From contig CM020618.1 in assembly GCA_009829735.1 (NCBI GenBank), forward strand, positions 14,180,568-14,244,567: a DNA stretch of 64,000 nt, in the 5' to 3' direction. Made by a program: the position numbers and the translations under genes. Within the stretch, counting starts at the first letter, position 1, and each line of letters starts with the position of its first letter. The notes below the pieces were generated by a model. The model saw nothing but the letters and a program-made list of their open reading frames with translations, made no database searches and was not told where the DNA came from. The DNA is from Pyropia yezoensis (lineage: Eukaryota; Rhodophyta; Bangiophyceae; Bangiales; Bangiaceae). Positions 7,084 through 43,632 of the stretch are shown here, piece by piece.

Positions 7084-9009
7084 TCAGTATGGGGCCCGGC
7101 TCTCGGCCCGAGGGTCCTCCTCTTCGTCGTCCACATCGGACCGACCACGTACCCGCGACCCCGACGTGGTCCCCCACTCCCGCTGAGCCTCCCGGGTCGC
7201 ACAGACCAACTCCTTCCCAAGGTCCTGGCGGATCCCATGCCGGTCCACGAGGTCCAGGAGCCGCTTGTAGTCTGGGACCTCCGAGCGCACTTGGTCCTGC
7301 GCCCACCCGGCTACACGGGTCCCAAGGTTCACCATCGTATGGAGACTAGCCGCGAGGAGGGGTCCGACCGGGGCCCCCTCCAGGTTGCCCATAGGGCCCC
7401 CGACCACACCGCGAAGGGCCCCGACGACTTGCGGTGGGATACCACCCTCCAATTGGGCCAACTCGGAGTCAGGGTCGTCTCGGTGGCCCATGAGGTTGGC
7501 GAAAAGGATGGCCGGACCCGAGGAGGGCCCTTGGCGATGACCCGTGGAACCGGCTGACCCAACAGCGCGGGCCACGACCGGACCGGGAAGAGCAGCGCCT
7601 TGAGAAGCGGCACCCTCGGTCCCTAGGTCCACTGCGAGCTCCCGACTCTCCAACACGTCAGAAGAATAAGGTAGGTCCAATGGGGCCAGGTCCTCATCGA
7701 CCCGGACCCCCCAGGTCCCGTCCGTTGGTTCGAACCGCACTTGGACCCAGGAAGTTCGCATACGGTCCTTCGGGTTCACCTTGTGGAGACGGGCCACTAA
7801 ACCGGGGACCGGGGCCACCTTGTCAAGTAGGTCCAGAAGAAGCTCAAGGTCCCGCTCGGCCACGGAGTCCAACCCCGACTGGGTGCGACAGATCACCTTG
7901 GTCCCTACACGACGGATCCAGGTTCGAAGGGTCCGGGAGAAGAGCCACAACTGGCAGGATAGCCGGGCCGTACGGAGCAGAAGGACCCCCGCGTGCACGG
8001 CCCACTCGGACCGAAACACGGCCCAGGTGAAGGTATCGATGGCCCGCAGTAGGTTCCCGAAGTAACAAAGGACCGGTGGCAGCTCCGTGGTGGCCCCAAA
8101 AGGGACCTCGACACCAACCCACCACTGAGGGACCCGGACATAATGGGCCCCACGGTCCATGGCGGAACAACTTGGGAACTCTTGTTGATGCCAGTCCACG
8201 AAGATCCGATGCTTGTCCCGGTGGTGCCGGTTGGTCACCAGGTACTGACGGGCCGGCTGGAACCCGTCGTAACCGAGAAATGGAGAGGCCTTGATGACGT
8301 ACTGGCCCGATGGGGCCGCCGGCAACGGCGCGGACCCGGCAATCGCCTTGTCCCGCTCCTCCTTGAACCGAACCACGTAGCCCACCTCGTCCAAATGACG
8401 GACCACGGTGATCGACTCGGACCGGTCGGCCCGCATTGGAACACGGGCCTCGGGCATGTTGACCATCTGGCGGAAGAAGGAGTAGCCAGTACAGGGCCCG
8501 TCGATAAACTGCAGGGTCGTGCGGGCCTTTGAGGAAGTAACCCAACCCCTGGCCCTCTCGCGGTCCCACGCAACACGGCCCTCGGGCCCAAACTGCTCCG
8601 GGAACCCGCCGATGATGTCGGTGTACAGCTTGCCCGCCCCCGGCTCCTCTTGTCCGCCGTGGTCGTTGGGCCCATCGTGACCAAGGGGCCCATCAGGAAC
8701 CGCTCCGCCGTCGACGTCCTTCGTGGTCCGCGACGCCGCTGCGTCGGGAACGTAAGGGCCCTTGGAAAACAGGGGGGCCGAAGGTGAGAGAGGAGGTGGA
8801 GGGGCCAGGCGATCCGCAAGGTAGCTGGCCAGGTGAGGGACCGATGAGTATGGTGGTGGTGGAGGCCGACTCGATGGCGCGCGTGGGTCCGATGGCCCGC
8901 GCTGCGTATGAGTGAGTCGGGTGGCCAGAGTAGAGACGGTCGAAGGGACCCGAGGGGGCCCGCTTACGTCCGGGTCTTCCTTCCCGACAGGAGGCGGACC
9001 CGGCGGCAT
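7084..9009 (-). CDS. Opposite-strand protein of element A (unknown family)
   Basis: Read against gag-pol, tail-to-tail with pol and starting ~530 bases inside the 3' LTR. The open frame extends up to 9333, but the upstream part is low complexity; the ATG at 9007-9009 (GCCATGC) is preferred, giving about 641 residues. After a Pro-rich N-terminus comes a folded-looking core: QYLVTN, then WWVGVEVPFG, then a Trp/Leu-rich stretch with WAVF and EWAVH, then LELLLDLLDK and TSWVQVRF. The same blocks in the same order occur in the opposite-strand ORFs of B (18067-20010) and C. No envelope, RT or other known domain is evident. The function is unknown. I judge it a real gene because homology across diverged families implies selection on this frame. 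Confidence 0.75.
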   Translation of the reverse strand: MPPGPPPVGKEDPDVSGPPRVPSTVSTLATRLTHTQRGPSDPRAPSSRPPPPPYSSVPHLASYLADRLAPPPPLSPSAPLFSKGPYVPDAAASRTTKDVDGGAVPDGPLGHDGPNDHGGQEEPGAGKLYTDIIGGFPEQFGPEGRVAWDRERARGWVTSSKARTTLQFIDGPCTGYSFFRQMVNMPEARVPMRADRSESITVVRHLDEVGYVVRFKEERDKAIAGSAPLPAAPSGQYVIKASPFLGYDGFQPARQYLVTNRHHRDKHRIFVDWHQQEFPSCSAMDRGAHYVRVPQWWVGVEVPFGATTELPPVLCYFGNLLRAIDTFTWAVFRSEWAVHAGVLLLRTARLSCQLWLFSRTLRTWIRRVGTKVICRTQSGLDSVAERDLELLLDLLDKVAPVPGLVARLHKVNPKDRMRTSWVQVRFEPTDGTWGVRVDEDLAPLDLPYSSDVLESRELAVDLGTEGAASQGAALPGPVVARAVGSAGSTGHRQGPSSGPAILFANLMGHRDDPDSELAQLEGGIPPQVVGALRGVVGGPMGNLEGAPVGPLLAASLHTMVNLGTRVAGWAQDQVRSEVPDYKRLLDLVDRHGIRQDLGKELVCATREAQREWGTTSGSRVRGRSDVDDEEEDPRAESRAPY

Positions 9010-9540
9010 GGCCGCGGCAACTCCCCCCCCTTCCCCCCGTACCACAGCACTCGACCCCTCCCCTGACGCTCTGCGGCAGAGGGGGATGGGGTCAAGCGTG
9101 CCGTGGGGGTGGCATGCCGCGCCCTCCCCTCGCCCCTTCCCCCCTGTCTCTGTCTCTCTCTCTGCTACGCCCTCCCCCCCCTTCCCCCCCTCTCTCTCCC
9201 TGGCGCGTGTGGCCCCCGTTGTGACCCCTCTCGGCGGGCCCTCTCCGACACCCGTGGACCACGCCTCCCCCCTTCTAGAAGGCGACCACTGTCGAAGACA
9301 CTGGCCCAGCGAGTCGTTGTGTGCGGTTCTCACCCCCCGGACCCATCGGTTCCTCCCCTCGGCCCGCTCGAATCTTGTTCCTTGTTCGCCGGCGGGACGC
9401 TCGGCCTTTGTGAGGGGGCCATGTGGCGTTCTGAGCCTTTGGGGACAGGCGGGCCCTTGGGGAGGTGACTTGGGACCCGGCGGGCTATCCTACGTGGAGC
9501 CCTTCTCTTGCCGGGGCCCCTTCTGTCAGTGACTCGGGAC

Positions 9541-10120
9541 TGTGGCGACACACCCGGGATCCTGATTGGTCCCACCCAGGGAGGCGGATTTGGCCGGTGG
9601 AGGTGGCCTTACTGGCCATTGTGGCCATTTGTTTCGTATTTGTTTTCACTGCGTGTTTTCGTGTCTTTCCCCTTCTTCCCACTGGGTTTTTTCGGGGATT
9701 GGCATCTGTGTGTGGGGGGATTTTCGCTTGCTTTTCGCTTGTGTTTGGCGACCGGGGGTTGATTGGTGACCCTCGGCGCCCCAGTGTAACCCCGGTGTAG
9801 GGGATGCGCTGGAGGACCTGGTGGAGGTCAGACGCCTTGCTGGCGCTCGACCCGCCAGAGGCACCCTCTAGGGGCCCCACTCTAGGCCCCTGGAGGGGCC
9901 AAGGGGGAGGTTCTTGAGGGGTGCTCCGGGGTCTCCCCGGGGCCAACTTGTAAAATCAACGGTTCTTTGGGTTCTTGCTCCCTCGGGCTTTTGTCCTTTT
10001 ACCCTTGCCTCTGAAGTACCGGGCGAGTGGATCACGCTGGGACCTTTACCCGTTCCTTCCTGACCCCGTTGTGGTTTCTTGTGTGTGTGGACCCTGGGCC
10101 AGAAGGGCCATAACGCTACA
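9541..10120 (+). repeat. Element A 3' LTR
   Basis: 580 bases, from TGTGGCGACACAC to CGCTACA. The start is set by the TGTGGC opening shared with family B and with the longer A-like LTR at 34805-35447, and by weak homology continuing left of the part shared with the 5' copy. Confidence 0.78.
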
Positions 10121-11470: not shown

Positions 11471-11939
11471 TGTGGCAGTATTGACCCCCAGGTAGGGGGG
11501 CAACACGTGCCATGCACGGGGCGGCAGGCCACTAGCCTGACCCGTTCCTCCCCCTGCATTTGGGTCCATATTCCCTAAGTTTGGGATAGTTAGCTTAGTA
11601 GTAAATCCAACTTGGATTTGAGGGTTTTCTGCATTTATCGTCTTGAATTTTCGTGTGGCCCGGTGGGCAGGTGCTGGGGTGGGAGATTCTGAGTGGCGAG
11701 ATTCTGAGGGGACCCTGGGGGGATAAGGGGAGGGACAGCGGGGCTTGGCCCTGCGTCCCCGTCCCGACCAAGAAACTGTTGGACCACACACCATCCTCTT
11801 GTTTGTCAGTGGGGGGTTTGCCCCACAACAGGGATAGAGTGTGTGCGACTTGCACTTCTTCCGGTTCCCCCGACACGGGAGGCAGCCCTTGTACACCGCC
11901 CCAACTTGGGTGTCGTGTGTGCAAGTGGTTTTTGCCACA
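11471..11939 (+). repeat. Element B 5' LTR
   Basis: 469 bases, TGTGGCAG...GCCACA. It contains a short palindrome AAATCCAA-C-TTGGATTT at 11603-11619, followed by TGAGGGTTTTCTGCATTT, an island also recognisable in the A-like LTR at 34805-35447. Confidence 0.93.
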
Positions 11940-12058: not shown

Positions 12059-14005
12059 ATGGCCGGTTAGGACCCCCCGTCGTCTGGGGAGTACACGGGT
12101 GACGCACGTACTTCAGTGCCTTTGAATACTGGTGAGACACAGGTAGGTTTACCTGGGGTCGCAGAGGGACTAGAGGTCCCTCAAACCAGCAGGACTGGAA
12201 GTACGGGCGGGCAACAGGCCACCCCGACTCAGTCGGGAGTTCACTCGGGTGACACTTCTGATGTGGGTGGGCCGAAGTCTGGCCACCGTGTGGTATACTC
12301 AACGGGAGCGTCCCAAGGGGTGAGGACTGTCCCCGCGGGTTCCACCCCGGTTGGAGCCAACTTTGGCATGGAGCCTTCGCCAACTAGGCTTTCGGAGGAC
12401 GGCGGACCTCCGTTGGTCGGCGATGGGCTCGCGCCCATGCCCCCGGTTGAGACCCCCGAGGAACGTGGTTACTCCTCAGGTGGACTCCCGGAGGCGGACC
12501 GAGACTCAACTGGAGTCGACAATCCACTCCTCGTGGAAACTGTCCGTTGGGAGGCGACCAATGTGTTGCGGCAGACTTTGCCGGACCTGGTGGTCACGAT
12601 GACGAATACTATTCTGAATCAGATTGTGGCGAGTTTGCCAGATGGCCTTAATGTCCAGACCGGATTGGGGCCTTCGAGCTCGCAGGCGCCGGGGGAATCC
12701 CTCCTCACGCCTACCTCTGGTCGCCCCGAACAGGGGGCGACACCTGGGACTCCCAACGAGGAAGCCACACCATACTCGGTGGGGCGTACGCCCTTCATGG
12801 GGGAGTTCCCCCCGGAAACGCCGGCGGCTACACCAAGCGCGCCGCGCCGGACTACAGGCACTGAGGGTGAACTTACCCCAGTGCCACAGCGGCTGTTCCC
12901 TCAACGTGAGGTGCCGCCCAAGATCCAGGTAGCCAACCCGGTCTACCAGAGGATCTTTGACTGTGAGACCTATGCCCTCCACAACCAGTCGGTGGCGTAT
13001 GGTCCTGACCAGGCCCGAGCCATGGGCCGTGCCAAGAAGAATGCACTTCACTCTTTTGGGCACAAAGCGGAGTGGGATGGAACTCCTCCCCTCCGTGTCT
13101 TTGAGTTCCTACGTCGTTTCACGAAAGCCTGTGACGACAATGCCATAAGTGAAGGTATGGCTTTTTACGTGCTACAGGAGTTTACGAAGGGAGACCTGCG
13201 GACAGAACTTATGTCCGTCATGCCCAGCTCCTCAAGTGGAGGCGCTGGGGAGGTGACGTCCTATTTGGAGCTCGTCAACTGGTTGTTGAGAGCCATGGTT
13301 GATGAAGCGGCGTTGGCTTCTCAAGTCGAGGAGTTAACGCACGCCCATCAGGAAGAGTCGGAGGACGAGTTGTCCTTTGCTGAGCGAGTTCGTAAGCTCA
13401 ACAATCTTTGTGGGTTTCTTCATCCACAAGCTGTGGTAAAGAGTCGGTTTGTGGAGGGGCTCCATTGGTCAGTCCGGATGGAGACCCGGGAGCATAACAC
13501 TGCCCGGGCGACCCTGGCCGAGTTGGCGAGGTTCGCCTACCGCAGAGGCGAGGCCTACCGCAAGTTGCGGGAGGAACAACGCCAGGAGCGTCAGTCCGAG
13601 TTGGGCAAAGAACGGGAGGAGGCGCGTGAGGCCAGAGAGTTGAGAGAGGCATGCCGTATCCGCAAGGAGAGGGTGGTAGCTGCCGTGGGAACATCGCAGG
13701 GTATCTCTTCGTCTTCCCCAGTTGGGAAGACCCCTCCGGGAACTGACCATCGGTGTTGGAACTGCAACTCCGATGGACACTGGGCATATGATTGCCCCAA
13801 GTTGAGTAAACGCATCCAACAACTTGTTAGGAATGCGAGTAAGAAGTCGGCTACGAACGAAGTACGTTCACGCCGCGAGGGTGGGTCTCGACCGGTGGGG
13901 GCGGTCGCCACACCATCGGCGAAGGGGGCGGACACGTCGTCCTCGGACTCGTCGTCTTCCCCTTCGTCCTCAGCTTCGGACGCCAAGTCGGCGGGAAACG
14001 AATGA
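12059..14005 (+). pseudogene. gag: Element B gag
   Basis: The start is placed at the ATG in CCAACATGG, conserved with A (783), C (38185) and the minus-strand B copies. The long frame is open from 12116 onward. An acidic, Pro/Thr/Gly-rich N-terminal third is followed by the gag domain (KACDDNAISEGMAFYVL near 13128-13178), a charged helical stretch rich in Arg/Glu (about 13540-13680) and a canonical zinc knuckle CX2CX4HX4C (CWNCNSDGHWAYDC near 13757-13797). Its stop overlaps the pol start as ATGA. It looks broken about once, near its start. Confidence 0.85.
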
Positions 14006-17000
14006 CCGTTGGAGCTGGTCGTCCGAAGCTCACAACGGCAGGCTCGGCCAAGTGGGTCAAGAGGACGAATCAACCGTGCCGGATACTGCGGCGACCTAAG
14101 GGAGTCCGCCCACCTCGGGTAGGACTCCCCAAGAACATAAACCCACGTCGGGTCATCGCGGTGCTCACGGGTGAGAACTTCCAGGTGGCTGGACGGGTGC
14201 AACTTGCCCCCGGCCGTGCCTGTTGTGCCCGTATCGTACTTGATACCGGGTCAGGAGCCTCCTTGATACGCAAGTCGCTATTACCAAAGGAGATGAAGCT
14301 CCAACGCTGGAAGTCTAAAGCTGACCATCTGATCGATATCAATGGTGGGGTACTTCCCATCGTTGGTGCCGTGACCCTATCAACTAGTTTGGGGACCCAT
14401 GAGGTCGACGTGACCTATGGAGTAGTTGAGAATATATCGGTACCCCTGCTTCTGGGTACCCCGTATGTTGTTACACAAGTGCGTTTGATTTGTGGCCCTG
14501 AGTATTGGGTCAAGTTGATGAATGGGGAGACTATCCCCATCCTTGGTAAGGGAACGTCTGTGGCTCCTGGGACAGTCTTACAGTCGAAGCCTGTTTGCTC
14601 TGTGAGGGAACGGTTTACTGCTACCCTGCGTTTAGCCCGTAAAGACACGTTGCCCCCTAACTCGGTGGCGCACGTTGATGTTGTAACTGATTATACGGGG
14701 AACGGGTTGGTGCACCCTTACCCCCATCTTGCTCGCAAACACCAAGTGCATGTTGCCCTTGGCACTATGGACTCCAAAGCCGGAGTCCCGTGGAGGGTCC
14801 AGGTGATGAACCTGAGCTCCTCGCCCAAGTACTTCAAGTCGGGAGCCAAGTTCGGCTATATCGACCAACATGAGGGACCGGTAGTAGCGGTCACCCTCAA
14901 TGCGGGCGCGAGGAGCGACCCGAAGTCCGGAAGGGAGAAGCACCAAGCCAAGTCGGCCGCCTCTCCTCGGCCCCATGTGAACATGGAGGGTGTTGCACCC
15001 AGGTTGACGGTTCAAGTTGAACGCCTCTTGGACCAATATCACAAGTTGTGGGATGGTCAATTGGGACTCATGAGAGCTACCCAACACCGGAACGAGTTGA
15101 AGCCCGGTGCACCCCCTATACGCCAACAACCGTATAGGGGAGGACCCCGTTCAAGGGCCCTCGTTAAGGAGCAAGTTGCTCGCATGGAGGCCCTCGATGT
15201 GATGGAGGCCAGCAACGCCGACTGGGCGAGTCCGGTGGTTATCGTCCCCAAAGTTGATGGGACCCCACGGTTCTGTATCGACTACCGCAAGCTGAACGAG
15301 AGCACGGTGAAGGACAGTTATCCCCTACCTAGGATGGACGACTGTCTGGACTCTCTGGGGGAGGCGAACGTGTTCTCTACCCTGGACTGTAACGCGGGGT
15401 ATTTGCAAATCGCCATTGCCCCGGAAGACAGGCATAAAACTACCTTTACCTGTCACTGTGGTACCTACCAGTGCAAGCGACTACCGGTTGGGTTGTGCAA
15501 CGCGCCGGCAGCTTTCCAGCGCGCTATGGACATGATTCTGGCCGGAGTACGGTGGCAGATCTGTCTCGTGCTCCTAGACGATATCATTGTGCTCTCCCGA
15601 AGTCCGGAGGAACACATTGGCCATCTTGGCCAGGTGTTCAAGCTACTTGCTGACGCCGGTGTGTCACAGAAGGCGAGTAAGTGCCACCTCTTCACTCAAG
15701 AGGTGGAATACTTGGGACATGTTGTCCGTCCGGGGCGCCTCAGTGTCAACGAGAAGAACTTGAGGGCCATCCGTAAGGCTCAGTACCCCCGGACCCAGAC
15801 CCAGATGAGGAGCTTCCTCGGGATGTGTAACATGTACCGACGTTTCACCAAGGGCTTCGCCAAGGTGGAAAAGCCATTGAATGAGTTAGTGAGCTCAACG
15901 CTACCGAAGAACCTGCCTCCCCCAAGTCGGGTGGAGCAGGAATCCTTTGAGACTCTTCGGGACCTTCTGCTGAAGCCCCCTATCCAGGCTATTCCCAGGT
16001 TGGGAGGCCACTACATCCTGGATGTGGACGCTAGCTACGACCAACTTGGTTGTGTGTTGCTTCAGCAGCAGCCGGACAAGGAGTACTTGCCGGTGGGATA
16101 CTTCAGCAAGGGGCTGAACTCGGCCGAGAAGAACTACGGGGTCACCGAGTTGGAAGGACTCGCAGTGGTATGGGCGGTGACGTCACTTCGTCACTACCTA
16201 GAGGGTGAGAAGTTCCTTATCCGCTGTGACCACCGCGCGTTGCAGTTCATCTTTAAGACGGACTGTACGAACACTCGTCTCAACCGGTGGAGGGTGCGAC
16301 TGGCACCCTTCAACTTTGATATTGAGTACCGACCTGGCAGGCAACATGCCCTTGCCGACGGCCTTTCTCTGGTACCTACCGAGGGGCTGGACACAAACTC
16401 AGTCGATGAGGACATCCCCATCGTGTGGGTAGTCACGCGCTCGGGTCAGGTGTTGAACCCCGAGGCGCCAGGGAACAAGAAGTACTTGCCCCTGTCCCTG
16501 GACGAGGTGGTGAAGGCCCAGGCCGAGGATCCCTTCTGCCAGTCGCAGAGGGATACACTGGATAGAGTGGCGGCGACGCGGTTCTTTCTGGGAGACGATG
16601 GCCTCCTCATGAGGAGGGGGGTATTCCAGGGGACCGAACAACTTGTCGTCCCCGCATCCCTCAAGGACAGTATCCTTGAGAGGGAGCACAACGCTCCCAC
16701 GGGTGGACACCTGGGGTCTAGTAAACTGTACCAGACCCTGAGGACCAGGTACTACTGGCCGTCCATGGTCGTGGACATCTACATGATGATACTGATGGAT
16801 CGGCGGCCTACTACGGCTATGTTACTGCTCCCGGCCAAGGGGCCCTTTGCCGCGTTGGCGATGGACATCCTTGGGCCCCTGCCAGTGACCGAGGAGGGCA
16901 ACCGGTACCTCCTTGTCATCTGTGATCGCTTCACGAAACTTACGCGAGCAATCCCTCTGGCAGAGATCACGGCCATATCGGTCGTGTCAGCCTTCCTAGA

Positions 17001-17913
17001 TCACTGGGTTGCCGCGTATGGCATGCCGGACAGTACACTATCGGACAATGGACCGCAATTTGCGTCTGTACTGTTTCAGGGAGTGCTGGATATGTTGGGG
17101 GTTAAGGCAGACTATGCCACCCCCTACCACCCACAAACTAATGGGCAGGTGGAGCGCTTCAACAAACCTATTGTTCGGCAGCTGCGCCACTGTGTGAGTG
17201 AGCACGTGAAAACGCGGGACCAATACATTTCTATTCTGACCACTGCCTACAATTCGCAGGTTCACTCATCTACCGGGGAAGTACCCCTCGCTTTCGTGAC
17301 CCCCCGTCGCGTAGGGTCTATTGCCGTGCGGCGGCCGCTCCCAACTAGGGAGGGTGGTGGCAGTACGCCTTCTCCGACTGAGAGTAAGGTGGCGTTCGCT
17401 GCTAGGCTTGAAAACCTCATCCCTAAAGTCAGGGCTGAGATGGACAAAGCGCAAAAGCGCTACAAGCGTACTTCTGACAAAAAGGTGCGCAATGCTAAGC
17501 ATGTCCCCGAGCAGGGTGACTGGGAACTGGTTCACTCACACACCCCAACTGGGGGTAAGTTGGTATTTCAGACGAAGGGGCCGTACCAGGTCCTTCGTAC
17601 TGATGGGCGGCGCTTCACCAACGAAAGTCGCGATGGGGTCCGCACAGTGAACGGACAGGACGTGGTCAAAGTTGCACCACCGCCTGCAGGCGACCCAGCT
17701 TGGGCGCGTGCGTTGGAGGCGTGGCGCCTCCCCTCGCTGCCTGGGGCCAAACATGGCCCGCAGGAGTACGTGTTCGATAAGTTCATCGACCACGGCTGGG
17801 ATGAGGACACTGACCGCCTCATGTTGAGGGTGCGTTGGTTTGGCTACAAAGCCAAGGATGATACGTGGGAGTATGTGGAAGACCTTCCCGCTGAGAAGGT
17901 CCGGGCGTACTGA
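14002..17913 (+). CDS. pol: Element B pol polyprotein
   Basis: One open frame of 1303 codons. Aspartic protease DTGSG at about residue 80; reverse transcriptase from about residue 400 (GTPRFCIDYRKLN near 418, the LDD signature near 523); RNase H from about 670; integrase zinc region from about 900; integrase core with MDILGPLP (~954), LSDNGPQ (~1013) and NGQVERF (~1047); chromodomain-like end at about 1250-1300 (LRVRWFGYKAKDDTWEY). It starts at an ATG that overlaps the gag stop codon (ATGA), the same in the minus-strand copy at 32027-32030, which suggests stop-restart translation or frameshifting. Confidence 0.9.
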   Translation: MTVGAGRPKLTTAGSAKWVKRTNQPCRILRRPKGVRPPRVGLPKNINPRRVIAVLTGENFQVAGRVQLAPGRACCARIVLDTGSGASLIRKSLLPKEMKLQRWKSKADHLIDINGGVLPIVGAVTLSTSLGTHEVDVTYGVVENISVPLLLGTPYVVTQVRLICGPEYWVKLMNGETIPILGKGTSVAPGTVLQSKPVCSVRERFTATLRLARKDTLPPNSVAHVDVVTDYTGNGLVHPYPHLARKHQVHVALGTMDSKAGVPWRVQVMNLSSSPKYFKSGAKFGYIDQHEGPVVAVTLNAGARSDPKSGREKHQAKSAASPRPHVNMEGVAPRLTVQVERLLDQYHKLWDGQLGLMRATQHRNELKPGAPPIRQQPYRGGPRSRALVKEQVARMEALDVMEASNADWASPVVIVPKVDGTPRFCIDYRKLNESTVKDSYPLPRMDDCLDSLGEANVFSTLDCNAGYLQIAIAPEDRHKTTFTCHCGTYQCKRLPVGLCNAPAAFQRAMDMILAGVRWQICLVLLDDIIVLSRSPEEHIGHLGQVFKLLADAGVSQKASKCHLFTQEVEYLGHVVRPGRLSVNEKNLRAIRKAQYPRTQTQMRSFLGMCNMYRRFTKGFAKVEKPLNELVSSTLPKNLPPPSRVEQESFETLRDLLLKPPIQAIPRLGGHYILDVDASYDQLGCVLLQQQPDKEYLPVGYFSKGLNSAEKNYGVTELEGLAVVWAVTSLRHYLEGEKFLIRCDHRALQFIFKTDCTNTRLNRWRVRLAPFNFDIEYRPGRQHALADGLSLVPTEGLDTNSVDEDIPIVWVVTRSGQVLNPEAPGNKKYLPLSLDEVVKAQAEDPFCQSQRDTLDRVAATRFFLGDDGLLMRRGVFQGTEQLVVPASLKDSILEREHNAPTGGHLGSSKLYQTLRTRYYWPSMVVDIYMMILMDRRPTTAMLLLPAKGPFAALAMDILGPLPVTEEGNRYLLVICDRFTKLTRAIPLAEITAISVVSAFLDHWVAAYGMPDSTLSDNGPQFASVLFQGVLDMLGVKADYATPYHPQTNGQVERFNKPIVRQLRHCVSEHVKTRDQYISILTTAYNSQVHSSTGEVPLAFVTPRRVGSIAVRRPLPTREGGGSTPSPTESKVAFAARLENLIPKVRAEMDKAQKRYKRTSDKKVRNAKHVPEQGDWELVHSHTPTGGKLVFQTKGPYQVLRTDGRRFTNESRDGVRTVNGQDVVKVAPPPAGDPAWARALEAWRLPSLPGAKHGPQEYVFDKFIDHGWDEDTDRLMLRVRWFGYKAKDDTWEYVEDLPAEKVRAY

Positions 17914-18066: not shown

Positions 18067-20010
18067 CTAGGCATGCATGCTAGACTCACCAACCCCACGG
18101 CCCTCGCCCTCACGTAGAGGCGAGCGGCGAGACCCACGGCGATAACGCTCCCCACCAGTCGGCGGGGCCGGCGGCTCCAAGTCGGACCCGTCGCGCCCCT
18201 CACGATCGCGCAAGTGGCGACGACCGCGGCTGCTCTTCTGCTTAGTCTTGCGCGCAAGTTGACGACGCAGACGCCGGACCGACTCTGACTCAGACGGAGT
18301 CGAGGACCCCGAGACGGAGTAAGACAACTCGTCTTCCGACACGGAGGGAGAGCGCCGCGAGTGTCGGCGACGACGGCGAGGAGGCGAGTACGCCCGGCTC
18401 GCGCGACGTTTGCCACGCCCAAGTGGGGCTGGCTGGGGCATAATAGCCCCGATGCGAGCCAACTCGGCCGTCATAAACTCCGCCACCGACTCGCAACTCG
18501 CGGTCGCCACTGCAGTACGAACGCGCTCCTCAAGTTGAGGAGTCTCGGAAGTTTGGAGGGTTGCGGTCGACGCGGCCAACCAGGAAATGGTGCGCACCAA
18601 CGTGGTGATCATCATCTCTGAGGTTAGAGGCGTGGGCGGTAACACCAACTTGGGGTATACCGTCAGGAGGGTGGCCCCCAAGTTGGGGGACACCGGGGTG
18701 GACGACTCAATGGCCACGCTAATCGGGATGTCCCCGTGCGGTTGGTAGGGGACAGGAGGAAGCGGAGGGACACGCCGAGGTGGCGGAACCCGGGTGTAAC
18801 TGCGACCCCGACTTGGGGCCCCCGCAGTAGGTTGAGTCATATGGTCATCATATGAGGGCACAGCCATAACTATGGGCTTGTCCGGGGGTGGCGCAGTGTG
18901 GCGATCCACTCCCGGGGCATACGGGTAGTCCCCGATGCCCAACCCCTCTCGTAGGACCACACGGCCGTCGTGAAGTTCACGAGCGACCCACACGAACTGG
19001 CGAAGTGCGCCATCGTCCTTGGGCCCACGAGTGGGGCGGCGCAACTTGTGCTCAATGCTCTCCCACTCGATAAGCTTGTGGAGACGGAGCATCTCCTCAA
19101 GTAGAGTGAGTTGTCCTGGTGAGCACCCCTCAGCAACTAGCTGAGGGGTGAGCTGTTCCAAACCTTGGATAAGCCGGAGGGGGAGATGCCAGAGCATCCC
19201 CCGCCGCTGAACACAGGACACCCAGGTCGACATGACCTCGAGGAGCCACTGGGTGGCCAACATGGCCCACACCAGGTGATCAGGGCCAGCCGTCAACATG
19301 ACGGAGCTGAAGTGGTCAAGCAACCGTGGCAGCAACGCCGGGAACCCGTAGGGGACCTCAACTTGAGGCCACCACTCGGGCTTCTTCGGGTAGTATTGCT
19401 CCTTACTGGCAGCAGACTGCTGAGGAAGCTCAAGTTGAGCCGAGGTCACCAAGTAGGGACCTCGCCGGAAGTCCTTCTCCATCCGCACATCAAAGTGATG
19501 AGTGTGCGGATCGGCCTCGTGAAGGTACGGGGGGCGAGTTGCCACCGCGTCCCAAGTAAAGGTCGGCAAGTCGCCGGGACCCGGGATAGTTCCTCCGCGG
19601 TCCACCATGGCCTTGGCACGCTGTACGTCCTCGACCTCCTCGTCGTCCAGGAAGGCAAACTGGTCCGTCCTGAAGCCGGCAGGGAACCCGAATTTACGGG
19701 AATACTTCTCCCGTAGGCGGTCCCATACCCGACCCATCGCTGCGCCAAGTCGGCCACAGCGGAGAACAGTCAACCCCTCCTCATAGAGAAGCCAAGCGGG
19801 GTAAAACCACCGCCTCAAGGCCTCACGCGGGACAACTTGTCCCGCCTCCGGGGGAGATCCCGCCGTCAACCCAAAGCCGGTTGACGCGGGAGTCCCATCC
19901 CCCGGAGCGATCGCGGAGTCCCCGCCGGAAGTCCCGGCGGGCGCTGCACCGTAGGAGGTGTCCTCCATACGCTTGTCGAGAGAGTCCGTCTCCACTCCCG
20001 GGGTCGCCAT
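18067..20010 (-). CDS. Opposite-strand protein of element B (same unknown family)
   Basis: Convergent with pol, about 150 bases between the two stops. The frame is open to an ATG at 20181, but the ATG at 20008-20010 (GCCATGG context, kept in the other B copy at 27.9 kb) is the better start, giving about 647 residues. Core: PYLVTSAQ, EWWPQVEVPYG, a helical Trp-rich stretch with WAML and QWLLEVMSTWV, then LLEEMLRLHK and FVWVAREL. The C-terminal quarter is Arg/Ser-rich and basic (about 18090-18430), like a nucleic-acid-binding tail. It aligns block for block with the A and C opposite-strand ORFs. Function unknown; no envelope-type membrane segments were seen. Confidence 0.8.
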   Translation of the reverse strand: MATPGVETDSLDKRMEDTSYGAAPAGTSGGDSAIAPGDGTPASTGFGLTAGSPPEAGQVVPREALRRWFYPAWLLYEEGLTVLRCGRLGAAMGRVWDRLREKYSRKFGFPAGFRTDQFAFLDDEEVEDVQRAKAMVDRGGTIPGPGDLPTFTWDAVATRPPYLHEADPHTHHFDVRMEKDFRRGPYLVTSAQLELPQQSAASKEQYYPKKPEWWPQVEVPYGFPALLPRLLDHFSSVMLTAGPDHLVWAMLATQWLLEVMSTWVSCVQRRGMLWHLPLRLIQGLEQLTPQLVAEGCSPGQLTLLEEMLRLHKLIEWESIEHKLRRPTRGPKDDGALRQFVWVARELHDGRVVLREGLGIGDYPYAPGVDRHTAPPPDKPIVMAVPSYDDHMTQPTAGAPSRGRSYTRVPPPRRVPPLPPVPYQPHGDIPISVAIESSTPVSPNLGATLLTVYPKLVLPPTPLTSEMMITTLVRTISWLAASTATLQTSETPQLEERVRTAVATASCESVAEFMTAELARIGAIMPQPAPLGRGKRRASRAYSPPRRRRRHSRRSPSVSEDELSYSVSGSSTPSESESVRRLRRQLARKTKQKSSRGRRHLRDREGRDGSDLEPPAPPTGGERYRRGSRRSPLREGEGRGVGESSMHA

Positions 20011-20337: not shown

Positions 20338-20356
20338 GGAACTGAGGAGAGGGGAG
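20338..20356 (+). promoter_or_regulatory. Polypurine tract of element B
   Basis: GGAACTGAGGAGAGGGGAG lies directly before the 3' LTR; the same tract adjoins the equivalent LTR in the minus-strand copy (27562-27580). This is the expected plus-strand primer. Confidence 0.8.
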
Positions 20357-27457: not shown

Positions 27458-27463
27458 TGGTAT

Positions 27464-32030: not shown

Positions 32031-33973
32031 TCGTCTCCCGCCGACTTGGCGTCCGAATCTGAGGGCGAAGGGGAAGACGACGAGTCCGAGGACGACGTGT
32101 CCGCCCCCTCCGCCGAGGGTGTGGCGACCGCCACCACCGGTCGAGACCCACCCTCGCGGCGTGAACGTACTTCGTTCGTAGCCGACTTCTTACTCGCATT
32201 CCTGACAAGTTGTTGGATGCGTTTACTCAACTTGGGGCAATCATATGCCCAGTGTCCATCGGAGTTGCAGTTCCAACACCGATGGTCAGTTCCCGGAGGG
32301 GTCTTCCCGACTGGGGAAGACGAAGAGGTACCCTGGGAAGTTCCCACGGCAGCTACCACCTTCTTCTTGCGGATTCGGCGTGCCTCTCTCAACTCTCAGG
32401 CCTGGCGCGCCTCCTCCCGTTCCTTGGCCAACTCGGCTTGACGCTCCTGGCGTTGTTCCTCCCGCAACTTGCGGTAGGCCTCGCCTCTGCGGTAGGCGAA
32501 CCTAGCCAACTCGGCCAGGGTCGCCCGGGCAGTGTTATGCTCCCGGGTCTCCATCCGGACTGACCAATGGAGCCCCTCCACAAACCGACTCTTTACCACA
32601 GCTTGTGGATGAAGAAACCCACAAAGATTGTTGAGCTTACGAACTCGCTCAGCAAAGGACAACTCGTCCTCCGACTCTTCCTGATGGGCGTGCGTTAACT
32701 CCTCGACTTGAGAAGCCAACGCCGCTTCATCAACCATGGCTCTCAACAACCAGTTGACGAGCTCCAAATAGGACGTCACCTCCCCAGCGCCTCCACTTGA
32801 GGAGCTGGGCATGGCGGACATAAGTTCTGTCCGCAGGTCTCCCTTCGTAAACTCCTGTAGCACGTAAAAAGCCATGCCTTCACTTATGGCATTGTCGTCA
32901 CAGGCTTTTGTGAAACGACGTAGGAACTCAAAGACACGGAGGGGAGGAGTTCCATCCCACTCCGCTTTGTGCCCAAAAGAGTGAAGTGCATTCTTCTTGG
33001 CACGGCCCATGGCTCGGGCCTGGTCAGGACCATACGCCACCGACTTGTTGTGGAGGGCGTAGGTCTCACAGTCAAAGATCCTCTGGTAGACCGGGTTGGC
33101 TACCTGGATCTTGGGCGGTACCTCACGTTGAGGGAACAGCCGCTGTGGCACTGGGGTAAGTTCACCCTCAGTGCCTGTAGTCCGGCGCGGCGCGCTTGGT
33201 GTAGCCGCCGGCGTTGCCGGGGGAAACTCCCCCGTGAAAGGCGCACGCCCCACCGAGTATGGTGTGGCTCCCTCGTTGGGAGTCCCAGGTGTCGCCCCCT
33301 GTTCGGGGCGACCAGAGGTAGGCGTGAGGAGGGATTCCCCCGGCGCCTGCGGGCTCGAAAGCCCCGGTCCGGTCTGGACATAAAGGCCATCTGGCAAACT
33401 CGCCACTATCTGATTCAGAATAGTATTCGTCATCGTGACCGCCAGGTCCGGCGAAGTCTGCCGCAACACATTGGTCGCCTCCCGACGGACAGTTTCCGCG
33501 AGGAGTGGATTGTCGACTCCAGTTGAGTCTCGGTCCGCCTCCGGGAGTCCGCCTGAGGGGTAACCACGTTCCTCAGGGGTCTCAACCGGGGGCATGAGCG
33601 CGAGCCCATCGCCGACCAACGGAGGTCCGCCGTCCTCCGAAAGCCTAGTTGGCGACGGCTCCAAGCCAAAAATGGCTCCAACCCGAGTGGAACCCGCGGG
33701 GACAGTCCTCACCCCTTGGGACGCTCCCGTTGAGTATACCACACGGTGGCCAGACTTCGGCCCACCCACATCAGAAGTGTCACCCGAGTGAACTCCCGAC
33801 TGAGTCGGGGTGGCCTGTTGCCCGCCCGCACTTCCAGTCCTGCTGGCTTGAGGGACCTCCAGTCCCTCTGCGACCCCAGGTAAACCCACCTGTGTCTCAC
33901 CAGTATTCAAAGGCACTGAAGTACGTGCGTCACCCGTGTACTCCCCGGATGACGGGGGGTCCGAGCAAGCCAT
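32027..33973 (-). pseudogene. gag: B2 gag
   Basis: Starts at the ATG in CCAACATGG (33971-33973), as in A and C. Gag domain (KACDDNAISEGMAFYVL near 32870-32920) and zinc knuckle CX2CX4HX4C near 32235-32275. Broken about once. Confidence 0.87.
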
Positions 33974-34092
33974 GTTGGCTGACGATCCGTATGACACGGT
34001 CCAAGTCCACCGTTCCTCTGAGACAGAGGGCCCCCTACACCCGGGTGCACCCGGAGGTAAAGTTTACCTCTGACTCCCGCTGCTCCACCAAA

Positions 34093-34560
34093 TGTGGCAA
34101 AAACCACTTGCACACACGACACCCAAGTTGGGGCGGTGTACAAGGGCTGCCCCCCGTGTCGGGGGATCCGGAAGAAGTGCAAGTCGCACACACTCTGTCC
34201 CTGTTGTGGGGCAAACCCCCCACTGACAAACAAGAGGATGGTGTGTGGTCCAACAGTTTCTTGGTCGGGACGGGGACGCAGGGCCAAGCCCCGCTGTCCC
34301 TCCCCTTATCCCCCCAGGGTCCCCTCAGAATCTCGCCACTCAGAATCTCCCACCCCAGCACCTGCCCACCGGGCCACACGAAAATTCAAGACGATAAATG
34401 CAGAAAACCCTCAAATCCAAGTTGGATTTACTACTAAGCTAACTATCCCAAACTTAGGGAATATGGACCCAAATGCAGGGGGAGGAACGGATCAGCCTAG
34501 TGGCCTGCCGCCCCTTGCATGGCACGTGTTGCCCCCTACCTGGGGGTCAATACTGCCACA
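34093..34560 (-). repeat. B2 5' LTR
   Basis: 468 bases with family-B ends; the primer-binding site lies inside at 34074-34090 (one base unlike B's). It abuts an A-like gag fragment at 34561 and appears to have inserted there. Confidence 0.9.
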
Positions 34561-37212: not shown

Positions 37213-37290
37213 GACATGACGTCCAGAATCCGGGGGGAACGAGAGGGCCAAGGTAAAGAAGAAGGGGGGGGGGGACAGAATCGGAGCAGG
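37213..37290 (+). other. 3' interior end of another C copy
   Basis: Matches 43628-43705 just before C's 3' LTR, including the first codons of the opposite-strand gene and the G-rich polypurine tract. Such sequence should not precede a 5' LTR. The LTR that follows is therefore shared by this remnant and element C, as in the B2/B3 tandem. Confidence 0.78.
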
Positions 37291-37975
37291 TGATCGTGAC
37301 CGGGGTGAAGACGCTCGACCTCGGCACCGGTGTGGACGTGCTCGAGGCTGTGCACGGTGGCACCTGGTTCGGCCCGAGGACGTGCCGGACTAGGGAGGGA
37401 GCTGTGTAGCATCCCTGGCCCCGACTATGCGCCGACCCGGGACTACAACCAGAGGGCACCAGGTGCCAGAACACGCCCGCCGTGTGGTGATGGTTGGCGG
37501 CCGTGGCCCGTGCCCGGCACTGGGATGCAGTGGACTACGCTATCCACACGTGAGAGAGGGATTTCTGATGGGTTTTTGCATACTTGTGAGGGACTTGATT
37601 TGAGAGAATTTGAGTGTGAGATTAGTGAGTGGGAATAGAATTAGTAGTGATAGTGGCCCCCGACGTGACGAGGTTAGACTCGGGTCGGGGCCACTCGGGG
37701 TTATGGGGGGGCTACCTGGCCAACGTGCCGAGGCTCCCCCAGATGCACGTTAAGAGGGACAGCGAGGCGCCCTTGGCCCGCGCCCTCAGGAAAAAGACAA
37801 CTGCGTGTTTGCTTTCCTCTTCCCCGTGTGCACTACCGTGCGTATCTGTTTGCTCTGCGAGCAGGCACGTGAGGCAAAAGGCAAACCACTCTCGTAGTTC
37901 CCCTTTCTGTGCTACCTGTCCCTTTCCCCCGAGGGATATTGACACGTGTCTGAGAGGATCGAGTTTTATACCACA
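37291..37975 (+). repeat. Element C 5' LTR
   Basis: 685 bases, TGATCGTG...ACCACA. It holds a near-perfect inverted repeat GTGGCCCCCGAC / GTCGGGGCCAC at about 37653-37695 and CTTGATTTGAGAG at about 37600, resembling CTTGGATTTGA in the B and A' LTRs. Confidence 0.87.
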
Positions 37976-37996: not shown

Positions 37997-38184
37997 ATTG
38001 GAGTGTTTGAGAAGAGACATTTGGGAGCAGCGGTTGGGTTGTTCCTGTTCTGTCTTTTTCTGTGGTTTGGGAATTATTTGCACCCGTTCACGGGAATCCC
38101 ATTCCTGGCTCTCCAACCCTTCTCTTGTGGTCTTGCCATCTTTGGACACGCAGGCAACTGGACTGTGGCTGTCAAGAGACCAAC

Positions 38185-39825
38185 ATGGCTACCCTCCTTG
38201 GCACGACGGTGCCCGAAGGGGTAGACCCCGCGTCCCTTGACGCATCCCTGGTCACCGCGGGGGACGGTGCCCAACCCGGCGTTCTCCCTACTGGTGAAGC
38301 AGACCTGGGTGTGACATCCGATAGCGGACTGGAGTCCACAGGCGGCCAAGTACCTCCTGCTCCCGTTCCTCCGGCTGTTCCTCCTGTGGGAGCCACCTCG
38401 GCGTCAACGGCGTTTGAGTCCGCTCGCAGCAGACGTCTCCCTCCTGTCGGTTCTACTCCTCAACCTTCAGGGATAGCCCCTGGTGTGTTGACTCCTGAAC
38501 CCACACATGGCAGCTGGGTGTATACACCTCTTCCTGTGGGCACTAGCAGTCCCAGAGGCACCGCTGTAACTGGTTCTACGGGTCACCCTGAGACCTCGAC
38601 TCCTGGGACCGGCCAAGTCTTTCCCCCCCTTGCATCCTACGGGGCGGGGAGCTCCAAGACCGGTAACCGGAGCAGCCGGAGGCGTCGGCGTCGTCGCCGT
38701 CGCTCTAGCACCAGCGAGACCAGTTGCTCCAGCTCTGAGGAGGGATATGACTGGGACGCATCTCCTGGTCCCACTCGGCGCAGGCTGGTCGAGTTTGACT
38801 TCCCTGCCCACCAAGTGGGAGATGCCACCCTGAACAAGGTCACGTATGGGGGTAACTACCGGCTGGAGAACCAAGACCAAGGTTACACCCGGAAGATGGC
38901 CAAGAAGATGGCATCCCTGAACCGGCGAATGCAGCCGAGCTTCGGGGGAAATCCTAAGTCTTCCGGGAAGAGACCGGCGCTTATATTTGCCTTCCTACGC
39001 CGGTTTGTCAAGGCGTGCAACGACAACGATGTGTCCGAGGGCAAGGCTCTCTACCTCCTGGTTAACTTCATGACCGGAGAAGCGGAACAGCGTTTTGCAC
39101 AGGTTCTACCAGACTCTGCCGGACACATTTTCGGGCGTACCGTTGGGAGCTATCCGGAGGCGGTCAACTGGCTCCTGTCCAACTACGCTGACGCGGACTC
39201 CCTGCGTACGGCAGTCGGCAGGCTGAACCGGGCAACCATGGAGAGACAAGAGACTCCAGAGGCCTTCGCTCGTCGTGTCCGGGAGATGAGCGAGGCTTGT
39301 GGCAACGCTTACCCTGAGTACAGGCTCAAGATGATCTTCTCGGAAGGGCTTCCTGAATATCTTCAAGTGGATGCGGAAAACTACAACCAGGAACATCAAG
39401 AACATACCTTCCAGCAGTTGATGGCCTACACCCAGGGCAAGTACCGGCAAGCCAAGGCCCTCCAAACTCCCATGGTGTCAATTCCTAAGCCGTTGTCGCG
39501 AGTTCGTCCCGGACCCGACAAGTATAAGGGAGGTGATAGCTCAGTACCGGTACTCGCAGTTGGCGAGGCCTCACCCGTTGGGTCAGGGGACAAGTGGGGC
39601 GGCTTCGTTTCCAAGGAGCAACCTTCCCTGGTCGCCCCCAAGCAGGTCAAGAACCAGCGATTCCGGTCTTGTCGGAGACTCCCGCAGCCGAGACCGGTCC
39701 TATCCCGGAGGAAATACCTTGCTTCATCCTCCCGAATGTCGGACGTGGCTGGCATGCTCCCCTATGTGACACACCTGAAGCTCATCAACCGGTGGCCATT
39801 CACCGGATGCTGGAGGCACAACTGA
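38185..39825 (+). CDS. gag: Element C gag
   Basis: Starts at the ATG in CCAACATGG. Thr/Ser/Pro-rich N-terminal third, an Arg-rich patch (RSSRRRRRRRRRS near 38667-38705), then the gag domain with KACNDNDVSEGKALYLL (near 39013-39063). The gag match fades after about 39500, and the last part of this frame runs over the integrase frame, so the natural gag end cannot be placed. Confidence 0.8.
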   Translation: MATLLGTTVPEGVDPASLDASLVTAGDGAQPGVLPTGEADLGVTSDSGLESTGGQVPPAPVPPAVPPVGATSASTAFESARSRRLPPVGSTPQPSGIAPGVLTPEPTHGSWVYTPLPVGTSSPRGTAVTGSTGHPETSTPGTGQVFPPLASYGAGSSKTGNRSSRRRRRRRRRSSTSETSCSSSEEGYDWDASPGPTRRRLVEFDFPAHQVGDATLNKVTYGGNYRLENQDQGYTRKMAKKMASLNRRMQPSFGGNPKSSGKRPALIFAFLRRFVKACNDNDVSEGKALYLLVNFMTGEAEQRFAQVLPDSAGHIFGRTVGSYPEAVNWLLSNYADADSLRTAVGRLNRATMERQETPEAFARRVREMSEACGNAYPEYRLKMIFSEGLPEYLQVDAENYNQEHQEHTFQQLMAYTQGKYRQAKALQTPMVSIPKPLSRVRPGPDKYKGGDSSVPVLAVGEASPVGSGDKWGGFVSKEQPSLVAPKQVKNQRFRSCRRLPQPRPVLSRRKYLASSSRMSDVAGMLPYVTHLKLINRWPFTGCWRHN

Positions 39826-41276
39826 CGGATCCTCAATGCTTGGAGCTTCGCCACCAAATGGACCTGAACCGGAACAGTCGTTTCTCCGAGTCTACGGATG
39901 GACTCCTGGTACGGGTGTCACCCTTCGATGGGGCAACTCAAGTCTACGTACCCCGAAGTCTACGAGCTGACATCCTACGCCTGGAGCACTCGTCTCCCCA
40001 GGCCGGACATCCTGGTATCAATCGGATGTATGCTTCAATGCGACGACATTACTACTGGGAAACCGTGGCCAGTGACGTCAATAAGCACCTGGAGGCTTGT
40101 GTTTCTTGTGCAAGGAACCGGTGGTCCCAGAGGAAGAAGACTTCCAAGCTACGCCTATTCCCTGCGGCGGAGCCCTTTGCAAGCTTAAGCATGGACATCT
40201 TGGGGCCCCTACCTGGAACATCCAGCGGCAACATATACCTGCTCATCATTTGTGACCGGTTCTCCAAGTTCACTCGAGCAATCCCGCTGAGGACCCTTAC
40301 GGCTCTGGATGTCACGTCAGCCTTCTGCGAGTACTGGATAGCTGCCTACGGCCCTCCAGACCCCGTCTTAACAGACAGTGGCCCCCAGTTTGCATCCCTG
40401 TTCTTCCAAGGAGTCTGTGACCTGATAGGCATCAAGAACTTGTTCACCACGACGTACCACCCGCAATCGAACGGCCAGGTGGAACGATTCAACCGGACCC
40501 TAGTGGACATGCTACGGCACTACGTGGAGGAGCACCAAGAAGACTGGGACGAGCTCCTGGCTGTCCTCACTCTAGCCTACAACTCCCGAGTTCCGAGTTC
40601 CCGGACAACGGGGGTCGCTCCACTCGACTTTGTCACCCCAAGGCGGTTGACCAACTTCTCCCTGGAAAGAATACCAGACGGTCTCCAGCCTGCATTGAAG
40701 TCAGGTCCCAAGGCCAAGGATGTGTTCCTGGAACAATTGAAGCTCCTGCTCCCCAGAGTCAAGGAGTCAATCTCAAAGACCCAGGAGCGATACAAGCGGG
40801 ACTATGACAAGGGAGTTCGGGAAAAGAACAAGGAACTGGGTGGTGGCGACTGGGTTTTTGTGGACAACCATAGCAAGACCCGGGGGAAGCTGGACTCTAA
40901 GACGGATGGACCTTATAAGATCCTGAATACGGATGGCTGGACCTTTCTTCTAGACGTGAATGGCTCCCCGTACCGGGTGAGCAGCGACCATGTCACCCGA
41001 GCTCCACCGCCAAGCAAACGGGACTTGACCCGGCGCAAGCGGGCCGCAGTACCCTGGCTATCCCAAGAAGAAGGCCGGGAATATGTCTATGTCAAGTTTG
41101 TCGACCATGCCTGGAGGGACGGGCGCTTGTACCTGCGAGTACGCTGGTTCGGTTTGAACCCGGCAGATGATACCTGGGAACCCTCAAACCGGTTACCCAT
41201 CGCGGACGTCTGCGCCTACACGCGACGGAACGAGATTGAGGGCACTCCAGTGGCCAGAGCCGGCAAGATCCTGTAA
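39594..41276 (+). pseudogene. pol: Element C integrase and chromodomain-like end
   Basis: Open frame. From about 39702 it matches the part of A pol just before integrase (GPIPEEIP). HHCC zinc region about 39985-40125 (HPGINRMY, CVSCARNRW); integrase core with MDILGPLP near 40193, LTDSGPQFASLFF near 40369 and NGQVERFNR near 40471; chromodomain-like end about 41080-41200 (LRVRWFGLNPADDTWEP). The upstream pol domains are absent from this element. Confidence 0.85.
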
Positions 41277-41514
41277 TCGGACTCGGAGGAGGACAAGGAG
41301 AACGGGGCTGATCAAGACCCTCAGGACGAGCCGAGCTCACCCGCAATGGACGCGGAACAAGAGGATTGAGAAGAAGGGAACGGGTGTATCAAGGAAAACA
41401 CGCAGTGCAAGCATGGAACTATCAAGAAAAACAAGCACCCGCTCGAGCAACCCTTCTCTCCGCCTCTTCCCTCCTCGCTTCTCCCAAGACTCTCACCCTC
41501 CCTGCCTTCAAGTA

Positions 41515-43632
41515 CTACTCCCGGCGCGGACGCTGCGCCGCGGGAGCGTCCTCCAGCGCTGCCTCAGCGGCACGACGGGACCCGGAGGAAGGCGGGATGA
41601 CGTAGTGCGGTGGGCGAGGCGCTTCCAGGAGTGACGCCATCGGAGTAGTACCAGTAGTTGCCGGGCGCTCCCGCTCATACAGATATGCCTGTCGGCGCCC
41701 CTGGAAGGCAGTGAAGGTCTCTGACCACTGCTGGGCCAAGCCATGCCGCGTCAAAGTCGCCAGAAGTTCGCCAACCACCGGGCTGTCCGACATCTGGCCG
41801 CTGTCCGCGCAAGCAAACACTCGGTCAACCACGTTGTTCAAGACGCTAGCGTAGGTGCCCAGCACCAGAGAAGTCCCGACGCCTTTGACTTGCACAGGAA
41901 GACGACCCAGCTGGTCTTCAATCATGCCAACGTCATACTGGTCGCACGTCGGGCCACCTTGGTTCAGGTACCAGTCAGGCACCCGGAAGCGGGTAAGGCG
42001 CAGAGTCGGCGCCGGGATCTCGAACCGCTTCGAGGATGCCACTACCGGACGGTCCACGACAGCCCCGGAAACCGGAGTCCCCAACTCAAGAGGAGGCACA
42101 GGGCCGCCGACGTTTGAAGAAGGCGCCCGAGGCAGAACGGCCGGAGTAGTCGGCGACCGCACGGCCACGCCCAGACTCGCTGGAGACAAGCGCGGTGCCG
42201 GAGGAGCTCGAAGCACCGGCACAGACGGAGCAGAACGCAAACGCGCCGGCGACGTTCCAGGCGAAGCCACCGAGACGACAGGTGCAAAAGGAGCAAGCGG
42301 AGCCGCCGCAGACGCCAGACCAACCGCTGCGGCCCAACCCGACTCTTGTACCGGCGGCCCAGTTGGCAGGAGATCGAGGGCGACCGGAGCAGGAAAGCCG
42401 CCTAGCTGCGGCCACGCCGGAAGCGGCGTCGCCAGCTGCACCTTGGCCGGAGTAGACTGGTAGACTACCTGCACCCAACCGGAGCCATCCCGACGCGGGC
42501 TGTTCTGGTCGGCGATCGCGTTCAAGAAGCTCCGGTCCTGCACCGGCAGCCGACGCCGGAAGTAGATCATCGCCTGGAAGAGCTCCTTGTACTCCTCGTC
42601 CTGGCTGCACAGGAAGTCGACGGTCAACTTGTCAACGATCCAGACCATCAGAGGGTCGGGGAGGAACCAAAGCCGGTTGGACACTAGGACCTCGTGGAGC
42701 CAGTGGTTGGCCGCCAAGACTGTCAACTCGGAGGTGTACATCATGTACGAAATCGAGTGGAAGAAGCCCTTGATCGACGCCTGGGTCAAGGCGTCCAAGA
42801 AGTACTAGGTGAAGGGGATGCTGGATGGAGCAAACCCGACTGGGATCTCGATTTCCTGCTGCTGCGGGGTGACCTTGGGGTAGTACGCCGCCCTGTTGGC
42901 CTTGTCCAGCTTCCAGAACTCCTGATGGTTGTAGCTCACAAGGAAGTCACGCTGACGCCCGCGTCGCTCACCTTGCTCCCGTGCCGGCGACAACTTGGAG
43001 TATTTCCGGGTCAGGAAAGGCGGCTCCAGAGCGACCATGCTCGGACGGGGATCGCAGTTCAGGCTCCCCGACCCCTTGAGCGCCTCGTCCCAGACCTTGA
43101 GTGCCCGATGGACGTACCCTTCCTCCTCTGGCCACCGGAGAACGGACGCAGACACGCGACTCTCGGTCAAGGGTAGATCCAGCACCAGCGCGAAGGGGAG
43201 ATCCTCCAGGCGAGCAACCCAAGAGGAACATGAGAAGCTCTGGGAGCGGTCTTGTGCCAGGCGCATCTGGTCCGCCGTATGAAGGCGAGTCTGATCCATC
43301 TCGGTCAAGACCCCGCGCTGGAGTTCCTTGCGCCAGATGTCCAAGCAATCCTGTTGGCACTGGGCCGCGCTGGCGTTACCGACCACCGTGGAGTAGCGCC
43401 GGCCCGCCAGAGGATCCTGCCCAAGAAGCATCTCCGGGAGACCCACCGGGGGGGTCTGGACCGGGAGCAACGCAGAAGCCGGGGGAGCCCGATCCGTCCC
43501 CGCCGTGGCGACCGGCGCCGGCACCGACACCCGAGGAAAAGGAGGCAGGAGAGGGGCGCGCCTACCCGAGTTCTCCTCCGCAACACTCGCCGCCGGAACC
43601 ACGGGCCCAGCTTGGATCTCGGAACTGGACAT
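41515..43632 (-). pseudogene. Opposite-strand gene of element C (same unknown family)
   Basis: Convergent with pol. The likely start is the ATG at 43630-43632, about 70 bases inside the 3' LTR; the open frame beyond it runs into the LTR. Blocks in order: DFLVSYNHQEF, AAYYPKVTP with EIEIPVGF, then a helical Trp-containing stretch (NHWLHEVLVSNRLWFLPDP), and SGWVQVVYQS, all alignable with A and B. Pro/Ala-rich regions flank the core. It looks interrupted about once. Function unknown. Confidence 0.75.

Follow-up and report, generated by a model that had tools for sequence, protein, structure and literature searches.

The 64,000-nucleotide stretch of the red alga Pyropia yezoensis analysed here (assembly GCA_009829735.1, contig CM020618.1, positions 14,180,568 to 14,244,567 of the forward strand; "the window" below means this whole stretch) contains members of three Ty3/gypsy retrotransposon families, A, B and C. 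Each carries a long gene on the strand opposite gag-pol, between the pol stop codon and the 3' long terminal repeat (LTR). We read A, B and C as three families of one red-algal Ty3/gypsy clade with an opposite-strand third gene, the product of which would have an accessory or regulatory role in the nucleus; in this composite reading we place about even confidence. A sequence-only reading of the window had proposed that the three antisense genes are homologous, and the proposal has held up well: the position of the genes was confirmed and profile comparison of their proteins gives expect values (E) of 7.3e-11 for A-B, the pair that had been set as the test, 1.1e-20 for A-C and 1.3e-6 for B-C.

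Homology and descent of the antisense proteins

The relationship is already apparent in BLASTP comparisons of the antisense proteins, which score 50.4 bits (A-B), 65.1 bits (A-C) and 39.3 bits (B-C), against best scores of 26.9, 27.3 and 26.2 bits, respectively, in 300 shuffles per pair. The best of the other cross-family frame pairs, two sense-strand frames of A and B, reaches 29.6 bits (E 0.005). Chance frames, as had been argued, are thus unlikely to align in this way. The ordered blocks described in the sequence-only reading are also present: a motif P-x-W-W-x-x-(V/Y/L)-EVP-x-G in A, B and the additional families D, D2 and E introduced below, or IEIPVG in C, followed by Trp-rich helices and then by a WVQV/FVWV strand. 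When the A core is used to search the genome (107.5 Mb, 11 contigs), copies of family C are found at E ~1e-11 (e.g. 2.3e-11 for G000:C2:31028158). Gag served as the negative control in the profile comparisons; the antisense protein shows no relation to it (hhalign E 0.44 for the A group and 0.61 for C), and these values lend no support to an origin by gag duplication.

A distant match (L061) led to family D, and then to families D2 and E. The proteins of these three families resemble that of B, at E values as low as 5e-41, and a genome search started from D also reaches a B copy (5e-9 for C1:35942332, within L010). One more D2-like antisense member (L072:746-2029), with no pol in the fetched stretch, could belong to a seventh family or represent stand-alone copies; its relatives, at ~33-36% to D, occupy many rows of the genome search.

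The LTRs of A, B and C had been called unrelated, and self-blastn (E <= 1e-20, rows >120 nt) finds no match between them; despite this, the three elements have in common TGGTGGAGCAGCA, a putative primer-binding stretch a few bases past the 5' LTR (642-654 in A, 11942-11954 in B and 37980-37992 in C). Pol is 47% identical between A and B, and the integrase part of C pol is 45% identical to A and 42% to B. When integrase and antisense core are set side by side, A and C are 46% identical in the former and 24% in the latter. The integrase tree and the antisense-core tree, each with seven tips that represent six families, agree in shape, with the groups (A,C), (D,D2), (B,E); in the core tree the B/E fork is weak (73/82) and C is a long branch. 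The pairwise identities of the two proteins go together (Spearman 0.87 over 21 pairs, which are not independent of each other). The simplest reading of these comparisons would be that the common ancestor of the six families already had the antisense gene, which has since descended with pol and evolved faster than the latter.

Relatives elsewhere are few: among 5.8 billion proteins there are 7 to A, 1 to B and 2 to C, and in the viral contigs and prokaryotic genomes searched no relative was confirmed. The protein had not been recognised from the sequence, and our searches agree: the antisense proteins have no match above cut-off in Pfam or NCBIfam and no significant PDB sequence match, and no fold match is significant; among viral structures the nearest hit, a phasivirus glycoprotein, is not significant (E 0.57), and no account of the family was found in full-text paper searches.

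Position, strand and selection

In the window, the gene and pol lie tail to tail, with stop-to-stop gaps of 262 (A), 153 (B) and 238 nt (C). The coordinates first proposed for B stand: the gene occupies 18067..20010 on the minus strand and encodes 647 residues within an open frame of 18067-20241, and its ATG at 20010 is retained in 19/20 copies. For A, on the same strand, the proposed start at 9009 is an upstream Met within the same open frame, which extends to 9489; the conserved protein (545 residues, 7084..8721) more probably begins at ~8721, a position occupied by Met in P0001 and L052 and by Lys in the window copy. The C gene (41515..43632, minus strand) is present as described, but not as an intact long frame: an in-frame stop at 42805-42807 divides it into the open stretches 41515-42804 and 42808-43857, both in the same frame, and this copy is defective. 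The C start codon at 43632 includes the first base of the 3' LTR, so that a C transcript, if unspliced, would have to begin inside the LTR.

Wherever it could be checked in the genome, this arrangement is constant. For the A group, the comparison took in 103 of the 134 antisense rows and the full set of 121 integrase rows, a partner being accepted within 6 kb; 62 antisense rows pair with 58 integrases, and all 62 are on the opposite strand and downstream of the integrase, at a gap of 830-1784 nt (41/103 have no listed partner within that distance). Orientation also agrees in 63/63 paired rows of C, with 77/140 lacking a partner among the matches listed, and at 20/20 loci of B, making 145/145 pol-paired rows in the three groups. 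Among six fetched loci of the further families, four (L067 of D, L069 of D2, L070 and L071 of E) are consistent, with pol downstream on the opposite strand; the other two are L068, cut by a B element, and L072, without pol in range. As in the general definition of an antisense additional open reading frame (ORF; aORF-3R), a long ORF lies between pol and the 3' LTR, is kept and is under purifying selection.

This selection on the antisense gene is visible in the elements. In 20 copies of B, the ratio of nonsynonymous to synonymous polymorphism (pN/pS) is 0.174, with 67/59/189 variable sites at codon positions 1/2/3; the pol end of the same 20 copies gives 0.211 and 46/44/108. In 30 copies of C the values are 0.292 and 206/173/307, and 0.190 for the core alone. 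The corresponding divergence ratio (dN/dS) between A subfamilies is 0.23-0.34, mostly at high dS. A ratio near 1 in young copies, a possibility raised beforehand, is therefore not what the B and C values indicate. The other possibility raised, that the antisense frames are mirror images of a coding plus strand, fails as well: the three gag-pol-strand frames over the gene are interrupted by stops, on average 12.6, 24.2 and 17.6 times per copy for B and 6.4, 11.0 and 12.4 times for C, so the antisense gene does not mirror a coding sequence on the plus strand. Low pN/pS in the phase-matched mirror frame (0.24 in B, 0.34 in C) is expected, since third positions are shared, yet this frame is full of stops. 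With at least 208 copies scored (at least 68 of B and at least 140 of C), 59/68 of the best-scoring B rows are free of stops, as are, over the N-terminal 275 residues, 134/140 best-scoring C rows including that of the window (133/139 of the others); these fractions overstate intactness because the lists contain the best candidates only.

Anatomy of the elements and other features of the window

The P. yezoensis genome is described as 48% repeats with LTR elements predominant (PMC7423979). Elements A and B have the LTR pair, the gag and the order reverse transcriptase - RNase H - integrase of Ty3/gypsy elements; all the parts of the three elements that follow are on the plus strand, except where stated. 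Element A is preceded immediately by a B-type LTR fragment (1-160). Its 5' LTR (157..637) and 3' LTR (9641..10120) were delimited by repeat comparison with edges read from the sequence, which are approximate; the former is 99.2% identical to 9642-10120. The A gag open frame (753..2504) can be aligned with those of B and C, and its zinc-knuckle score is below the Pfam cut-off. A pol (3750..6821) contains reverse transcriptase, RNase H and integrase (Pfam E 9e-33 for RVT_1, 1.4e-31 for RT_RNaseH and 6e-14 for rve) and a chromodomain match below the curated cut-off (Chromo, 0.031).

Element B is bounded by LTRs at 11471..11939 and 20357..20825 (97.4% identity; repeat comparison, edges read from the sequence) and by the target duplication GTAAA at 11466-11470 and 20826-20830. 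Its gag frame (12116..14005) has a zinc knuckle (zf-CCHC, 2e-05); pol (14002..17913) has reverse transcriptase, RNase H and integrase, with protease and chromodomain matches below the cut-off (Chromo E 0.0017). A purine run at 20344..20356, read in the sequence as the polypurine tract, adjoins the 3' LTR. A second, inverted B copy (27461..34560, minus strand) has its pol split in two frames and lacks the interior of the antisense gene (B 18096-19989): in self-blastn, 16792-18096 corresponds to 29211-27907 and 19989-20456 to 27917-27461.

Element C has LTRs at 37217..37975 and 43632..44390 (98.0% over the repeat, edges read from the sequence). Its gag (38062..39825, from alignment with the other gags) runs into a deletion and is followed by the integrase part of pol (39594..41276); protease, reverse transcriptase and RNase H are absent from this copy, so that it has no complete gag-pol. 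The gag-to-integrase distance is 1.09 kb here versus 3.76 kb at C3:26445187/26448945, and since many other C rows of the genome search contain pol frames of 1371 residues, the C family itself is not defective. Broken B-family pieces flank the element (35448-37216 and 44391-45015); part of a B LTR lies on both flanks, and the site is therefore rearranged, with no simple target duplication to be seen.

The rest of the window holds various unrelated features. At 22565-27156 an element of DIRS-type appearance is nested in a B-family fragment; it has a single frame of 1394 residues with matches to reverse transcriptase and a Dam-type methyltransferase, a frame end that resembles a tyrosine recombinase by eye, and 96% direct repeats at its ends. 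Next to a Plavaka-type transposase remnant (47504-49704, Pfam E 1.3e-8) is a frame that scores weakly for a C2H2 zinc finger. Further on there is a GC-rich array of related repeats (54079-55338, periods of ~110, 142 and 166 bases) and a region of ~75-80% GC (57960-61207) with a possible host alpha/beta-hydrolase gene (Pfam below cut-off) containing long Gly/Ser-rich low-complexity inserts.

Known antisense genes and a possible nuclear role

The arrangement is of a known kind; the protein family is unmatched in the libraries and literature searched. According to two accounts (PMC7264820, PMC11963269), antisense ORFs are already known from plant and fungal elements; the sequence-only reading had named the Tat group of plant Ty3 elements as an example. 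In the Tat/Retand elements (Grande gene23, RIRE2, and Retand ORF4 with Transposase_28) a long antisense ORF occupies the same slot between pol and the 3' LTR, is kept in most copies and is suspected of a nuclear role (PMC7264820, PMC11963269). The same sources describe the maize Grande product as nuclear, with an upstream antisense promoter (PMC7264820), and the Retand TRP28 proteins as proposed DNA-binding proteins (PMC11963269); the function of such plant ORFs is a standing puzzle (PMC7264820). The present genes differ in their red algal host and in their protein. Transposase_28 (PF04195) is absent at E <= 1 from 13 aligned members, the window proteins and the proteins of four more families, and gives no match in a six-frame search of the genome; we therefore do not class the gene as of Tat/Retand type. 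A further difference may lie in pol: Retand is described as non-chromoviral, and the pol of both A and B ends in a sub-threshold chromodomain match. The deltaretroviral HBZ and APH-2 are also antisense genes at the 3' end of an LTR element, a comparison of working mode only: here there is no bZIP match in Pfam (E <= 1), and the core of ~300 residues has helices and a hairpin. A ParB/methyltransferase accessory gene of the Ectocarpus Sola1 transposon is likewise opposite to the main gene, but that is a DNA transposon with an identifiable methyltransferase domain (PMC12477816); none was found in the antisense proteins.

With respect to the protein itself, the predicted models of A and B present the same order of parts: a helix of 26 residues and a short strand come first, followed by more helices and a beta hairpin, then by a disordered linker and finally by C-terminal helices. 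These models are not independent of each other, because their alignments share rows, and they are inadequate for a claim of a new fold. A hydropathy scan of 13 proteins gives 19-residue maxima of 0.98-1.58; the C proteins, at 1.54-1.58, are just below the usual membrane-helix limit of ~1.6. The B protein ends in an Arg/Ser-rich tail, which we take to resemble a nuclear localisation signal motif. Four points together suggest a nuclear accessory or regulatory role, to which we give a chance of about one half: the protein shows no relation to gag, it lacks clear membrane features, it has a basic tail, and it parallels the products of Grande and Retand. The gene, tail to tail with pol, would be read inward from the 3' LTR side, from an antisense promoter that may lie in or beside this LTR, as the overlap of the C start codon with the LTR edge hints. 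Its product would be soluble, with a core of Trp-rich helices and a beta hairpin, a disordered linker, a C-terminal helical part and, most clearly in B, an Arg-rich tail. In the nucleus it might control LTR transcription, counter silencing or handle the element RNA or integration complex, perhaps acting at least partly in trans, which would allow deletion copies to go on spreading.

Several observations weigh against this reading. No DNA- or RNA-binding domain was recognised in the antisense proteins, the models are modest (predicted local distance difference test 59 and predicted template-modelling score 0.50 for A; 49 and 0.42 for B), and the Arg-rich tail that is clear in B is weak in A and short in C. 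Within family A itself two close copies were compared, with dN/dS of 0.43 (A-L051) and 0.73 (A-L052, decayed and with stops), and two copies of family E give 0.52 for the antisense gene versus 0.13 for pol. No intact antisense gene is present at five integrase loci whose pol frames are 1336-1442 residues long: four have no antisense tblastn match at E <= 1e-3, though in L066 an N-terminal stretch is visible by eye, and in L064 a C-terminal remnant persists. For 63/121 integrase rows of the A group no antisense row is listed within 6 kb, in part because the lists are incomplete. Since gene-less elements exist, the antisense gene may be dispensable; the long-pol loci and the inverted B copy imply that an element either has no need of the protein in cis or obtains it in trans.

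The same gene-less copies bear on the most serious alternative, in which the protein does not regulate but serves as an accessory of structure or replication, in virus-like particles or during reverse transcription or integration. Selection on the B gene as strong as that on the B pol end, and the co-descent with integrase, would suit such a role. We nevertheless think it rather unlikely: long-pol copies manage without the gene, the protein has no relation to gag, and separate antisense expression would presumably uncouple it from the gag-pol dosage. It is less probable still that the gene is a captured host gene or other cargo, acquired once. Two of the 7 matches to A (P0006 and P0007) are indeed NCBI entries for Pyropia vietnamensis under the name "hypothetical protein", and stand-alone copies are possible, given the 41/103 A-group rows without a listed integrase within 6 kb and L072 without pol in range; but a gene common to six families, with trees of the same shape, selected within the elements, belonging to no Pfam family and invariant in place and strand in every pairable copy, hardly looks like cargo. 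A third possibility is that the antisense RNA matters rather than the protein, for example by limiting copy number through double-stranded RNA. The transcript would be complementary to the element RNA, and such a role is discussed for plant elements in PMC7264820, but the distribution of variable sites over codon positions, together with pN/pS of 0.17-0.29, speaks for selection on a protein and makes RNA as the sole role very improbable; an RNA role and a protein role could coexist. Finally, an env-like gene would occupy this same slot from pol to the 3' LTR, and the C proteins have a stretch just under membrane-helix hydropathy, but with the gene on the opposite strand to gag-pol in every pairable copy and no significant viral structure match, this idea is scarcely credible.

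If the reading of a nuclear regulator is extended, these families would constitute a clade of ambisense retrotransposons, whose antisense gene predates the split of at least six families, encodes a protein family not described before and controls the element's own expression or counters host silencing, a proposal that we put forward tentatively and at somewhat less than even confidence. If true, it would be an invention separate from the plant Tat antisense genes and the retroviral HBZ, and antisense regulators would appear to arise repeatedly at the same position of LTR elements. In red algae, one gene family combines selection at the codon level with a fixed orientation and with descent alongside integrase across a deep divergence, and with a second, unrelated protein in the same antisense slot, the purpose of antisense genes in LTR elements becomes testable.

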